A stretch of 64,000 nt of DNA from Paractinoplanes abujensis. Lineage in GTDB: Bacteria > Actinomycetota > Actinomycetes > Mycobacteriales > Micromonosporaceae. Where the stretch lies: positions 5,456,001 through 5,520,000 of the forward strand of contig NZ_JACHMF010000001.1 of assembly GCF_014204895.1 (NCBI RefSeq). Reading direction: 5' to 3'. The translations under genes and the position numbers were made by a program. Below, one piece after another: positions 4,603 to 55,180 of the stretch (its first letter is position 1; every line of letters begins with the position of its first letter). The notes under the pieces were generated by a model. That model was not told the DNA's origin and did not search any database. It saw only the letters and a list, made by a program, of their open reading frames with translations.

Positions 4603-6240
4603 TCAGTCGGGCGTGGCGCTTTCCTCAGTCGTGGCGTTCTTGTCGGGCGTAGCGCTTGTCTCGGGCGTTGCGTGGCCTCCGATCGCGCGGACGGTGTCGA
4701 TCGTGTCGGCCTCGGCGGCCGGTTTGTCGTCGCGGTAGCGCAGGACCCGGGCGAAACGCAGGGCCACCCCGCCGGGATAGCGCGGCGACGTCTGCACGCC
4801 GTCGAAGGCGATCTCGACCACCTGCTCGGGGCGCACCCGCACCACCCAGCCGTCGTCGCCGGTGGCCAGCTCCTGGAAGCGCGCCGTCTGCCAGCGCAGC
4901 AGCTCGTCGGTGAGGCCCTTGAACGTCTTGCCGAGCATCACGAACCCACCCGTCCCGGGGTCACGCGCGCCGAGGTGCAGGTTCGACAGCCAGCCCTTGC
5001 GCCGGCCGTGCCCCCACTCGACGGCCAGCACCACCAGGTCGAGCGTGTGCCGGGGTTTGACCTTGACCCAGGCCGAACCGCGGCGGCCCACGTCGTACGG
5101 CGCCTCGGCCGCCTTGATCACCACACCCTCCTGCCCGGCCGCGAGCGCGGCGGCGAAGGCCGCGGCCGCCTCCTCCTCGCTGGTCACGGTGGTGCGGCCG
5201 ACGATCAGCTCGGGCGGCAGGGCGTCGGCCAGCGCCTGCCAGCGCACATGACCCGGCTCGTCGAGCAGGTCGACCCCGTCGAGGTGCAGGATGTCGAAGA
5301 AGAACGGCACCAAAGCCAGTTGATCGGCGGGACCTGCCGCGGCACCGGGTGCTTCAGGCGCGGTGGCTGACTTGCGGCGGGCAGCCGCCCCGCGAGTGGC
5401 AGCCCGGCTCGACGTCTCCTGAAACGGGCGGGGACGGCCCGACGCGTCGAGCGTTATCGCCTCGCCGTCGAGCACCACCTCGCGCAGCGGAAGCTTGCGC
5501 ACGGCCTCGACCACCTCGGGCATGCGGGCGGTGATGTCATCGAGGCTGCGGGTGAAGACGGCCACGTCGTCGCCGGACCGGTGGACCTGGATGCGGATGC
5601 CGTCGAGCTTCACGTCGACGGTGGCGGGCATGCCGGTGGCCAGCAGCGCGGCACCGACGTCGGAGGCGCTCTGGGCCAGCATCGGGGTGAGCGGGGTGCC
5701 GACCCGCAGGTGGATCTCGGCCAGCGCGGCCGCACCGGCAGTGAGAGCGGCGACGGCGACCTGTTTGAGATCACCCGAGAGCAGCAGGGCCCGGCGCACC
5801 GCGGTGAGCGGCACCTCGGCCGCCTTGGCGATCGCGTCGGCCAGCAGCCCGGCCTGGGCGCCCTGGCGCAGCTCGCCGCTGAACAGCCCGACCAGCAGAC
5901 GCTGCTCGTCGGCCGTGGCCGCACCGAACAGGGCGGCCACCAGCTCACGCCGCCGGGCCTGCGAACCGGCCCCGGCAACGACGGAGATCTCGGCGATCAG
6001 CGCGTCGACCGCGGCCACGGTCAGCGTGGGCTCGGCGGCCGGGGCAGGTCGCTCGCGCAGACTCGCATAGCCCACACCGGTCTGCCGCTGCCGCAGCTCA
6101 CCGGCCAGATAGGCCGAGCCGGGCGCGATCTCGCCGGGCTCGAGCCGGCGCAGCGCGTCGGCCAGCAGCTCGACCTTCGCCTTGCGCCCGGAGGTCGCCG
6201 CGACGGCCGCCGAGGTCTCCGCCAGATCCAGGAATCGCAC
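4603..6240 (-). CDS. ligB: ATP-dependent DNA ligase, LigB type
   Basis: 545 residues, closely matching the mycobacterial LigB layout. An N-terminal DNA-binding domain ('SAYLAGELRQRQTGVGYASL', 'ALFGAATADEQ') is followed by the nucleotidyltransferase domain with motif I KLDGIR (nt 5593-5610, the adenylated lysine), motif III 'FFFDILHLDG' and motif V 'WVKVKP'. The OB domain then carries 'YPGGVALRFARV'. It seals nicks with ATP as cofactor and is accessory to the NAD ligase in actinobacteria. The tail after 'DTVRAIGGH' is made of ATP[DE]xx hexapeptide repeats. GTG 6240 is chosen because 'VRFLDLAET' begins the conserved part and AGGA lies 7 nt upstream. A longer reading to 6378 adds only non-conserved sequence. 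Confidence 0.93.
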   Translation of the reverse strand: MRFLDLAETSAAVAATSGRKAKVELLADALRRLEPGEIAPGSAYLAGELRQRQTGVGYASLRERPAPAAEPTLTVAAVDALIAEISVVAGAGSQARRRELVAALFGAATADEQRLLVGLFSGELRQGAQAGLLADAIAKAAEVPLTAVRRALLLSGDLKQVAVAALTAGAAALAEIHLRVGTPLTPMLAQSASDVGAALLATGMPATVDVKLDGIRIQVHRSGDDVAVFTRSLDDITARMPEVVEAVRKLPLREVVLDGEAITLDASGRPRPFQETSSRAATRGAAARRKSATAPEAPGAAAGPADQLALVPFFFDILHLDGVDLLDEPGHVRWQALADALPPELIVGRTTVTSEEEAAAAFAAALAAGQEGVVIKAAEAPYDVGRRGSAWVKVKPRHTLDLVVLAVEWGHGRRKGWLSNLHLGARDPGTGGFVMLGKTFKGLTDELLRWQTARFQELATGDDGWVVRVRPEQVVEIAFDGVQTSPRYPGGVALRFARVLRYRDDKPAAEADTIDTVRAIGGHATPETSATPDKNATTEESATPD

Positions 6241-6472
6241 CCCCACATCCTGGCAGCACCCCCTGACATTTTCGCCCCGAAGACCGCCCCGGCCTGCGCC
6301 TCGAGTTCCCGACCGCACCGACTCAAGTGAGGGGCCGCAGTGGGAGTTGGGAGATGCCGGAGCGGAATGGAACCCCACGGAACGAGCGACAACGCGAGGG
6401 CACCGCCGAGCGGCGGGACGGCGCGAGGGACGCCGCCGGGGAAAGGGAACCTGCGGCGGTGAAAGTCAGGGG

Positions 6473-6769
6473 TCAGGCGGCTCGAGGCTCGGAGATGCGG
6501 AAGCCGCGGGCCCGGACGGCGTCGGCCATGCGGGCGACCTGGGCGTCTATCTCGCAGAGCGTGGCCGACAGTTCTTCCAGATGGTCGGTGAGGGCACCGT
6601 CGTCCCAGTCGGAGACGTCGACCTCGCCCATCGCGCGGACGGCCCAGCGCAGCCGGGCGATGGCCTCGAGACGGTCGTGGGAGCGGAGGCGATCGATCGT
6701 GTGGCGCGGCCCGGCCAGTTTCGGCCGCACCACCAGGGACACCGTGGCGGGGACATCGTTCGAACGCAT
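6473..6769 (-). CDS. Small SOS-box-associated protein, unknown function
   Basis: 98 residues, charged and probably helical, with no domain I recognise. The segments 'IDRLRSHDRLEAIARLRWAVRAM' and 'LEELSATLCEIDAQVARMADAVRARG' look like two amphipathic helices separated by 'GEVDVSDWDDG'. The ATG lies within a perfect LexA-type palindrome and 7 nt after a TAGGAT hexamer, so the gene is probably leaderless and under direct SOS control. Synonymous third positions are GC-rich, as expected for a real gene here. It is followed by an unexplained gap and then the ligase gene on the same strand. Confidence 0.7.
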   Translation of the reverse strand: MRSNDVPATVSLVVRPKLAGPRHTIDRLRSHDRLEAIARLRWAVRAMGEVDVSDWDDGALTDHLEELSATLCEIDAQVARMADAVRARGFRISEPRAA

Positions 6770-6775
6770 GTTCGA
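6760..6775 (-). promoter_or_regulatory. LexA/SOS box
   Basis: TCGAAC-GCAT-GTTCGA is a perfect 16-bp palindrome matching the actinobacterial/mycobacterial LexA consensus TCGAAC-N4-GTTCGA. It covers the start codon (6767-6769) of the 98-residue gene, and TAGGAT (minus strand, 6782-6777) lies immediately upstream. Bound LexA would cover the predicted transcription start. Confidence 0.85.
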
Positions 6776-6823
6776 TATCCTAACAGGACGAGATCGTCGC
6801 CCGCACCTGTGACGCGGCGTGGT

Positions 6824-8296
6824 TCAGCCCCTCATCAGGGCCGGGAAGACGCCGGCGGCTTCGTCCACGCCGGCCTCGGCGGCGACGAATCCGTCGGGGC
6901 GCACGAGGTAGAGCCGCCCGGGCTGGAGGCCGGTGGCGGGTGGCGCGGGCGCGAAGGCGTGCACGGGCAGCCCGAGGTCGGGCACGTCCGCGGCGGCCAC
7001 CCCGCCGTACGAGTGGATCTGCCACCGCAGGTCGCGCAGCACGGCGAAGTTGCCGCCGGCCCAGGGCAGCCGGCGCCCCACCACGGGGTCGCGCCGCCCG
7101 CCGGCCTGCACGGGCGTCATCCAGTAGTGGATGCGGATCTGCGAGATGTATTGGAACAGCCGCGAGCCGCCCGCCGCGCGGGGCACGAGGCGCACTCCGA
7201 CCGGCGCCGCCAGCGGCACGACGATACGGCGCAGCGTGCGCAGGAGCGGCCGTTGCGAGGTGATCGCCCCGAAGAGCCGGTCGGTGGTGGCCACGAGGGT
7301 GCGGGCGACCGGGCGGCGTTCGGCGTCGTAGCGGTCGAGCCAGGCGTCCTTGCGGCGGCCCTGCAGCACGTCGGCCAGCTTGAAGGCCAAGTTGTGCGCG
7401 TCTTGGAGGCCGGTGTTCATGCCTTGGCCGCCGACCGGTGAGTGCACGTGGGCGGCGTCCCCGGCCAGGAAGAACGGCCCGTCACGGAAGGTCGCGGCCA
7501 CCCGGTGGTGCACCTTGTACGTCGCGAACCAGCGCGCTTCGCCGTACGTGACCGCGAAGTCCTTGATCCGCGGGCGTACGTCCTCCTCGGTGAGCCGCCC
7601 GTCGCCGTCCTCGTCGCGCACCAGCCCGATCAGGCGCCAGGCGTGCCGGCCGCGCATCGGGAAGCCGATCAGAAAACCGTTCTTGCCGGGGCGTACGTTG
7701 ATCGCGTTCTCCACCAGGCCCGCGACGCCCAGCGCGTCGATCACGTAGAAGCGGTGGGGGTTGGTCACGCCTTCGAAGGCGATGCGCCGGGCTTTGCGGA
7801 TCGCCGAGTTCGACCCGTCGCAGCCGACGCAGAAGCGGGCGCGCACGGTGTCGTTGCCGACTTTGGCCTCGATGCCGTCCTCGATCTGCTTGACGGCCGT
7901 GATCGGCGTCTCCCAGCGCACGTCGGCGCCGAGTTTCTGCAGGTTCTCGTAGAGGATCTCCTCGTTGCGGCTCTGTTCGAGGATCTCGATGAACGGGTAC
8001 GGCGTGGACTCGCCACCGAGGGGGCCCAGCGGCACGCGCCCGAACGCGCGGTCGAGGAAGCCGGGCGCGACCGCGTCGGCCCGGCGGGCGGCGTCCAGCA
8101 CCTGGTCGCCCAGGCCGAGCTGGTCGTAGATCTCGAGGCTGCGGGCCTGGACGACCAGGGCTCGCGACTCGCGGGTGGGGCCTTCCTTGCCGTCCGCGAC
8201 GATCACGTCGACCCCGAGTTTGACCAGCCAGTTGGCGAGCATCAGCCCGGTCGGGCCTGCCCCCGCCACCAGCACGTCACACGACAGCTCGGCCAT
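6824..8296 (-). CDS. FAD-dependent aromatic monooxygenase (PheA/TfdB family)
   Basis: 490 residues of the class A flavoprotein hydroxylase fold. The Rossmann motif GAGPTG is at about 12-17, the 'VGCDGSNSAIRKA' DG motif near 155-170, and the 'FLAGDAAHVHSPVGGQGMNTG' GD motif near 285. A C-terminal thioredoxin-like segment is divergent. Such enzymes hydroxylate phenols or polyketides using NAD(P)H and O2. The substrate cannot be inferred, as the neighbours are unrelated peptidase genes. GGGAG precedes the ATG. It starts 10 nt after the M20 peptidase gene ends on the same strand, so they may be cotranscribed. Confidence 0.9.
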   Translation of the reverse strand: MAELSCDVLVAGAGPTGLMLANWLVKLGVDVIVADGKEGPTRESRALVVQARSLEIYDQLGLGDQVLDAARRADAVAPGFLDRAFGRVPLGPLGGESTPYPFIEILEQSRNEEILYENLQKLGADVRWETPITAVKQIEDGIEAKVGNDTVRARFCVGCDGSNSAIRKARRIAFEGVTNPHRFYVIDALGVAGLVENAINVRPGKNGFLIGFPMRGRHAWRLIGLVRDEDGDGRLTEEDVRPRIKDFAVTYGEARWFATYKVHHRVAATFRDGPFFLAGDAAHVHSPVGGQGMNTGLQDAHNLAFKLADVLQGRRKDAWLDRYDAERRPVARTLVATTDRLFGAITSQRPLLRTLRRIVVPLAAPVGVRLVPRAAGGSRLFQYISQIRIHYWMTPVQAGGRRDPVVGRRLPWAGGNFAVLRDLRWQIHSYGGVAAADVPDLGLPVHAFAPAPPATGLQPGRLYLVRPDGFVAAEAGVDEAAGVFPALMRG

Positions 8297-54046: not shown

Positions 54047-55180
54047 TTGATCGACAGGCTACTGGCGGTTCGGCGGATTCTCACCGACGCGGCCGCGGAC
54101 GCCGTTCCGGACCGCCTGGCCGAGGGACTGGCCAAGGAGTACGGAGTCGTCCGAACCGAGTTGTACCTGGTGGACTACCGTTTGGCGGCCCTCGTGCCGG
54201 TCTTCGGATCCGACGATCGCACCCGTCCGGGCGACCCCGCCTGGCGCTGCTTCGACCACCAGTCCGAAGTGCACGCGGATGATGTGATCTTCGTACCGGT
54301 CACCGTGCGCGGGGAACGGATCGGGGTGCTCGCCTGCGCGCCGGCGCCCGACGACGACCGCACGGCGGCCGAACTGGCCGAGATCGGGGTCGCGCTGGCC
54401 CACGAGCTGCAGTCGGCCCGGGCCGGCACCGACCGCTACCAGGCGATCGCCCGGACGCGCAGGCTCACGCTGGCCGCCGAGATGCAGTGGGAGCTGCTGC
54501 CGGCGCGCAGCCGCACGCGCCCGGCGTTCGGCCTGGCCGGGCAGCTCGAACCGTCGTACGACGTACGGGGGGACAGTTTCGACTGGGCCGACGAGGACGA
54601 CCGCCTGTCGCTGGCCGTGCTCAACGGCATGGGCCAGGGCGTGTCGGCCTCCCTGCTGACCGCGCTGGCCACCTACGCCCTGCGCAACGCCCGCCGGGCC
54701 GGGATCCCGCTGGCCGATCAGGCCGCGCTGGCCGACCAGGCCATCTTCGCCGAGCATCGGGGCGCGAGCCACGTGTCGGCCCTGCTGCTCGACCTCGACC
54801 TGGCCACCGGTGAGGTGGAGGCGGTCGACGCGGGTTCGCCCCGGCTCCTGCTGCTGCGCGACGGCGAGGTGCAAGCGCAGACGCTGAGCAAGGAGTTCCC
54901 GCTCGGCATGTTCGAGGAGACCGACTACCAGGTGCAACGCTTCCGGCTCGAGCCCGGCGACCGGCTGATGCTGGTGAGCGACGGGGTCTACGACGCGGTG
55001 GCGGCGACCGGGCGTTACGGGGACGCCGCGCTGGCCCGGTTCGTGCGGCGCACCGGGGCGCTGGTGCCGTTGCAGGCCGTCCGCTCGCTGCTGGGTGACC
55101 TGCGGGCCTTCGTGGGCGACGCCGAGCTCGAGGACGACGCCGTCGCCGTCTGCCTGGACTGGTACGGGCCGCGCAACTGA
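54047..55180 (+). CDS. GAF-like/SpoIIE PP2C phosphatase
   Basis: 377 residues. The N-terminal ~140 residues look like a small sensory domain ('VPVTVRGERIGVLACAP', GAF-like). The C-terminal SpoIIE/RsbU phosphatase has 'GDSFDWADEDDRLSLAVLNGMGQGVSASLL', where the usual GGDxxD is varied but Asp is kept, and 'DRLMLVSDGVYDA', 'EDDAVAV'. It probably acts in a stress anti-sigma cascade. The TTG start at 54047 is supported by GAGGAGG with 6-nt spacing, and no ATG/GTG is nearby. Confidence 0.88.
   Translation: MIDRLLAVRRILTDAAADAVPDRLAEGLAKEYGVVRTELYLVDYRLAALVPVFGSDDRTRPGDPAWRCFDHQSEVHADDVIFVPVTVRGERIGVLACAPAPDDDRTAAELAEIGVALAHELQSARAGTDRYQAIARTRRLTLAAEMQWELLPARSRTRPAFGLAGQLEPSYDVRGDSFDWADEDDRLSLAVLNGMGQGVSASLLTALATYALRNARRAGIPLADQAALADQAIFAEHRGASHVSALLLDLDLATGEVEAVDAGSPRLLLLRDGEVQAQTLSKEFPLGMFEETDYQVQRFRLEPGDRLMLVSDGVYDAVAATGRYGDAALARFVRRTGALVPLQAVRSLLGDLRAFVGDAELEDDAVAVCLDWYGPRN

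Follow-up and report, generated by a model that had tools for sequence, protein, structure and literature searches.

The classical LexA regulon of Streptomyces venezuelae, which includes recA, lexA and dnaE2-dinP, is described as resting on operators of the consensus tCGAAC-N4-GNNCGa, and its validated dnaE2 boxes include GTAC half-sites (PMC9380542). Most genes tied to a LexA site in this species are of unknown function, and the boxes in the selected list begin at -20 to -199 (infC, +91), with the exception of that of pvnz_37140 (hypothetical protein), which begins at -14 and, as in the gene described below, would also reach the start codon (PMC9380542). Nucleases of the DUF222 or 13E12 HNH type have likewise been associated with this response, as the 13E12 HNH genes of Mycobacterium tuberculosis were placed under LexA by a network study (PMC4181829). 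In addition, five putative HNH endonucleases of M. tuberculosis show a RecA-dependent response to mitomycin C (PMC8151990), 13E12 not being mentioned there.

The window analyzed here, a 64,000-nucleotide stretch of the genome of Paractinoplanes abujensis, contains a small gene which shares with the classical LexA regulon its operator consensus, GTAC half-sites included, but which, unlike the classical members, is without a recognized repair function. In our main reading, to which we give a rough probability of 0.62, the gene is repressed by LexA, is transcribed without a leader and encodes a small helical-hairpin protein, a stand-alone and nuclease-free relative of the DUF222 hairpin that would act by protein binding during the SOS response. 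The features of the locus, in window coordinates, are as follows.

6473..6769, minus strand: small protein gene, predicted leaderless, 98 codons plus a stop codon at 6475-6473
6782-6777, minus strand: -10-like hexamer TAGGAT, preceded by TGn (TGT-TAGGAT), 7 nt before the ATG
6775-6760, minus strand: LexA-type box TCGAACATGCGTTCGA, exact TCGAAC-N4-GTTCGA with the ATG in its spacer
6769-6767, minus strand: start codon ATG, within the box spacer
6629..6709, minus strand: predicted helix 1, residues 21-47 (AlphaFold2), its second half belonging to the core
6509..6601, minus strand: predicted helix 2, residues 57-87 (AlphaFold2), aligning with helix 29-60 of the DUF222 model
6476..6481, minus strand: C-terminal Ala-Ala, which we liken, speculatively, to an ssrA-like degradation signal
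4603..6240, minus strand: ATP-dependent DNA ligase, predicted leaderless GTG start at 6240-6238
6247..6268, minus strand: ligase promoter TGTCAG-N10-CAGGAT, P1/PafBC-like and distinct from the LexA box

The pattern TCGAAC-N4-GTTCGA, which we take to be the mycobacterial-type LexA box consensus, had been reported over the start codon by an earlier, sequence-only reading of this DNA, and the match is indeed exact, being one of four such boxes in the 9.33-Mb genome compared with none for a backwards control pattern. Within the window, 12 sites lie within two mismatches of the consensus (against 2.56 on average over 100 shuffles, sd 1.81), and TCGAACATGCGTTCGA is the sole exact box among them. The box TCGAACCGTCGTACGA at position 54546 was set aside, as it falls inside a 377-codon open reading frame. 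When one mismatch is allowed, 63 boxes are found genome-wide versus 24 for the control pattern, so that a large share of the single-mismatch sites must be chance occurrences.

Relatives of the small protein are present in 35 of the 36 sampled genomes of the genus (that of P. abujensis counted) and in none of 24 genomes from other families of the order. An alignment-based search recovered the gene in 210 of 300 Micromonosporaceae genomes, representing 18 of 44 genera, with a single match per carrier genome except in G084, which has two. Among 296 genomes of the class, three matches were convincing, every one of them in Micromonosporaceae; four others (E 0.005-0.008) lie inside open frames of more than 1000 codons and were taken as chance. 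In the protein searches (best 120 of 528 and of 671), the relatives are mostly Actinoplanes hypothetical proteins where they are named, one of them bearing the name ‘Transcriptional regulator’ with no visible evidence behind it. A literature search, in which subscription journals were thinly covered, found no publication on the gene among the titles listed.

Around the start codon the DNA was read in 16 genera, at all 35 loci found in the genus and at 40 selected outside it, and none of these 75 loci was discarded; a LexA-type box lies over the ATG at every one of them, with no mismatch to TCGAAC-N4-GTTCGA in 35 loci, one in 34, two in 5 and three in a single locus (L090). A search for orthologues with conserved boxes was the check proposed by the sequence-only reading, and its outcome is strongly favorable. 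The same reading had pointed to TAGGAT 7 nt upstream of the ATG, with which the sequence agrees; furthermore, TAnnnT is found 6-8 nt before the ATG in all 75 small genes, as against 50 of the 2291 remaining ATGs of these loci, and TGn precedes the hexamer in 32 of the 75. As a Shine-Dalgarno sequence TAGGAT is disfavored, because Shine-Dalgarno-like 4-mers, present in 30 of the 35 loci of the genus, are scarce outside it (3 of 40), which fits a -10 element better. A generic sigma-70 scan that requires a -35 hexamer called no promoter at 6150-6850, and the promoter assignment for the small gene consequently rests on the -10 hexamer and its conservation.

The two half-sites of the box differ in that the left is non-coding (TCGAAC in 68 loci, TCGTAC in 4, TAGAAC in 2 and TAGCAC in 1) and the right is coding (GTTCGA in 36, GTACGA in 38 and GTTCTA in 1). 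The GTAC half-sites are regarded as legitimate because the validated dnaE2 boxes contain them, and they also occur upstream of lexA, where TCGTACAGATGTTTGA is found in 8 of the 8 main lexA loci inspected (P. abujensis and relatives). It is conceivable that the box is kept merely because the protein begins M-R/S-S/T-N and is not an operator at all, and the coding right half-site would be in keeping with this, but we consider such an explanation extremely improbable, as the left half-site, upstream of the ATG, is kept too, and as residue 2 varies whereas the last two bases of its codon do not. In fact, codon 2 is CGT (Arg) in 42 loci, AGT (Ser) in 32 and GGT (Gly) in one, so that GT is retained in 75 of 75, while elsewhere the small genes use CGT for 96 of their 637 Arg residues and AGT for 35 of their 404 Ser residues. 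The operator is constrained at the level of the DNA, and not just through the protein. A LexA-controlled and leaderless gene is well supported by this pattern of conservation, from which we infer LexA binding, a leaderless start and induction by DNA damage.

That the product is a real protein under purifying selection is indicated by low median pairwise dN/dS values, which are 0.23 for residues 31-98 of the 98-residue group (11 sequences, 55 pairs) and 0.32 for the 68-residue group (39 sequences, 739 pairs). The 68-residue product is encoded in 39 of the 75 relatives and the intact proteins range from 68 to 120 residues (74 cases), the 98-residue form having about 30 extra, mostly low-confidence residues near its N-terminus. 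This additional stretch sits between the operator-coded start and the core and is of variable length (up to 120 residues for the whole protein), and the 68-residue relatives run straight from the operator-coded start into the core. The 68-residue core itself is predicted to be a helical hairpin, in an AlphaFold2 model that has a mean pLDDT of 72.9, a pTM of 0.47 and a low-confidence start; the mean pLDDT is 60 in residues 21-30, 78 in residues 31-40 and 81 in residues 41-50.

The statement in the sequence-only reading that the 98-residue product has no known domain is borne out, since no Pfam or NCBIfam family reaches its curated cut-off; nor is there a match in PADLOC at E≤0.1. No HNH domain is among the families shown, and the protein is too short to hold one. 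Several sub-threshold matches were taken as coiled-coil or chance likenesses, namely Urease_linker (21 of 22 members, best E 0.0016), XLF_CC (10 of 31, best E 0.0029), PspAA (1 of 31, E 0.0056) and the PHROG family ‘terminase small subunit’ (2 of 22, best 0.0013). The best PDB match by sequence was sc-apCC-4 (E 0.0011), a designed coiled coil by its name. Foldseek returned no match at E≤0.001 with either the small-protein model or a model of a DUF222 protein.

A relationship to DUF222 nucleases, which the sequence-only reading did not contain, is nevertheless likely. When the profile of the small-protein family was run against 167 open frames of 29 DUF222 loci, the best three matches were all DUF222 N-termini (L121, E 0.0004; L143, E 0.0017; L146, E 0.0035; E values for this small set), and all three sit just behind LexA-type boxes. 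Profile-profile alignment with hhalign against the first 100 columns of a set made of L143 and 120 relatives (Geodermatophilaceae-type), a set that was picked after the weak L143 match, gave a score of 40.0 and a probability of 93.4, with residues 5-56 aligned on 7-58, compared with a maximum of 21.1 in 400 shuffles and 13.3-15.8 in four reversed controls. The full-length L143 set gave a score of 37.6 and a probability of 79.4 over 51 columns with no gap. Residues 1-4, where the likeness is imposed by the operator, fall outside the hhalign alignment. The AlphaFold2 model of the DUF222 protein is middling overall (mean pLDDT 71.5, pTM 0.46), with helices at 7-21 and 29-60 and a pLDDT of 91-97 for residues 11-60, and under the hhalign alignment the predicted helices of the two proteins coincide.

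Against this, a second set, of 28 unpicked Micromonosporaceae DUF222 proteins, reached only 20.7 (probability 11.5) when limited to the first 100 columns, barely more than the maximum of 18.5 in its 300 shuffles; the score was 20.0 (2.3) with the full length and 22.0 (27.4) with the first 65 columns. When compared with each other over the first 100 columns, the two DUF222 sets reach 45.0 (probability 94.5) in an alignment that falls largely behind the first helix, and their hairpins alone score 16.3 (probability 4.3), which indicates that the hairpin region diverges fast within DUF222 as well. DUF222 (PF02720) is absent from the 25 Pfam families shown of 26 (31 members, E≤10). Taken together, the core of the small protein is probably homologous to the N-terminal hairpin of DUF222, the alignment behind this assignment spanning the two-helix region only; the likeness is probably new here. 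Points of likeness between the two kinds of protein are LexA-type boxes at many gene starts and, with the L143 set, a gap-free alignment over the predicted N-terminal helix-loop-helix, and they differ in size (about 400 residues for the DUF222/13E12 HNH proteins versus 68-120), the DUF222 body and HNH domain not being found in the small protein.

LexA-type boxes are frequent at the starts of DUF222 genes. In the order, 11 of 28 loci have a box with no more than one mismatch near the DUF222 start, and 1 of 167 control windows has one, with W allowed at the varying base and with L146 left out, as its strand was not given. An in-frame ATG or GTG falls inside the box spacer in L119, L120, L125 and L143; L124 was not counted because its ATG is out of frame. 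Among Micromonosporaceae, such a box (≤1 mismatch) is seen at 27 of 29 DUF222 loci. The gene start was taken to be the next in-frame start codon behind the box, and in 24 of the 29 it lies 26 nt after the first base of the box. The box that recurs in these genes (L173-L201) resembles TCGTACACCTGTTCTA; as judged by eye, TAnnnT begins at its last two bases in 27 of 29, so that LexA would cover their -10 element.

The two genes differ in their distribution, the small gene usually occurring as one copy in a conserved place and DUF222 being patchy (136 of 300 genomes) and often multicopy. The P. abujensis genome has no DUF222 match, and it is one of 133 among the 210 carriers of the small gene to lack one, so a DUF222 partner cannot be general. 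Across the 300 genomes the two are in fact anti-associated (odds ratio 0.30, p 4.7e-6). At the genus level, where DUF222 occurs in 9 of 18 genera with the small gene and in 18 of 26 without it, the difference is not significant (p 0.22), and shared ancestry may explain the anti-association. A more specific scenario, in which the small gene is a core gene of Micromonosporaceae that goes back to a spreading DUF222 HNH nuclease under SOS control, its nuclease having been lost and its docking hairpin kept under LexA, and in which the product serves after damage as a decoy at the docking site or partners of DUF222 and blunts cutting, appears decidedly unlikely.

For the LexA-repressed hairpin protein of our main reading, the following course of events is proposed. 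Next to the -10 hexamer, LexA would cover the transcription start and the initial codons and block RNA polymerase, and upon DNA damage the RecA-triggered cleavage of LexA would allow a transcript that begins at the ATG, i.e. a leaderless mRNA. As the hairpin has no recognized catalytic part, protein binding is its natural mode of action, and it may bind to itself, to a DUF222 nuclease or to a host factor on which such nucleases dock, although the choice of partner is a guess. The protein might be removed again by way of its Ala-rich C-terminus, a role that is likewise guessed and for which the comparison is with ClpXP substrates, whose ssrA-like C-terminus ends in (L/V)AA: the C-terminus is AA in 46 of 74 relatives and the last residue is Ala in 67 of 74 (L025 was left out, as its contig reads N there), and outside the genus the motif is loose (SA, PA, SV, PV and others). 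The small protein is probably a new DNA-damage-response protein, and the proposal in the sequence-only reading of an uncharacterized DNA-damage-inducible protein is supported by the operator evidence. The locus adds to the LexA regulon a conserved candidate in which operator, promoter and start codon are fused, together with a first lead on the product. Should the hairpin be a shared docking module, its free-standing form would offer a handle for finding the partners of DUF222/13E12 HNH nucleases.

The adjoining gene, also named in the sequence-only reading, is confirmed as an ATP-dependent DNA ligase (NF002868, 782.8 bits, cut-off 641). In 72 of 75 small-gene loci it follows the small gene in the same orientation, at an estimated distance of 18 to 1105 nt (median 114.5; 70 loci with an aligned ligase start). 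In the three exceptions the ligase lies about 2 kb on (G010) or about 28 kb away (G096), or has no match at E≤1e-60 (G226), and all three have kept the small gene; the ligase neighbor is not needed for its retention. The ligase promoter follows the pattern TGTCRG-N10-(C/T)AnnnT, which in its strict form directly precedes the start in 37 of 80 upstream regions (43 fail) and occurs in 6 of 4971 control windows. It resembles the published P1 consensus tTGTCRgtg-8nt-TannnT, which is tied to the PafBC pathway (PMC5656591), with C in place of T at the first -10 base here. For S. venezuelae, an initial search is reported to have suggested a lack of conservation of the PafBC motif (PMC9380542), and in view of the P1-like promoter Micromonosporaceae may be worth examining for it. 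The small gene/ligase locus may thus be a point where two damage pathways come together.

Such proximity raises the possibility that the small protein is an accessory of the ligase, co-expressed by read-through. The conserved downstream position, the gap sizes, the lack of a terminator-like site in window positions 6150-6850 and the weak matches noted above to the coiled coil of XLF, an end-joining factor, although we take these as coiled-coil likeness, would be compatible with this, and strong GC hairpins do occur in the gaps of some relatives. However, the gene persists in G226 and G096, and the ligase has its own conserved promoter. Moreover, of the 19 genomes tested that lack a small-gene match, 12 contain a match to the ligase (E≤1e-60), and at 13 ligase loci, 11 of them from genomes without a small-gene match, the first 1.7 kb holds no LexA-type box (≤1 mismatch) and no small-protein match, which makes an accessory role very unlikely. 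DinI and RecX are direct modulators of RecA and offer another comparison for a small SOS protein. Direct modulation of RecA or of another SOS enzyme would suit a small helical protein with an SOS-type operator, but is unlikely: no family match names DinI or RecX and no PDB fold match was obtained. In its favor, the HNH nuclease Ref of phage P1 needs RecA-coated DNA (PMC4713147), so that a hairpin common to SOS-type HNH nucleases could be their RecA-docking part.

A quite unlikely alternative is an SOS cell-division inhibitor of Micromonosporaceae. Small size and damage induction, the latter predicted for the small gene, are shared with ChiZ/Rv2719c, DivS, YneA and SulA (PMC3989709), the operator is of SOS type, Streptomyces is described as being without clear homologues of the known SOS division inhibitors (PMC9380542), and SepF gave a weak, sub-threshold match in 2 of 31 members (best E 0.13). 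In contrast, ChiZ and YneA have a LysM domain, and YneA also a transmembrane part (PMC3989709), whereas the small protein has no LysM match (Pfam, 31 members) and no SulA-type family among the families shown, and the family has no strongly hydrophobic stretch (best 19-residue hydropathy ≤1.46 in 74 proteins). The gene is not beside lexA, and its locus differs from the lexA locus, where in P. abujensis (L099) a LysM protein (PF01476, 39.5 bits, cut-off 20.9) with a hydrophobic N-terminal stretch (19-residue hydropathy 2.73) is encoded divergently from lexA, with LexA-type boxes between the two. This layout resembles that of YneA and ChiZ (PMC3989709), and the post of division inhibitor therefore looks filled.

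Three LexA homologues in the genome exceed the curated cut-off (G000:C1:8234847, 5795604 and 4361157). Another of the exact LexA boxes (L037, G000:C1:6591572-6591587) lies 12 nt upstream of a 77-codon open reading frame.
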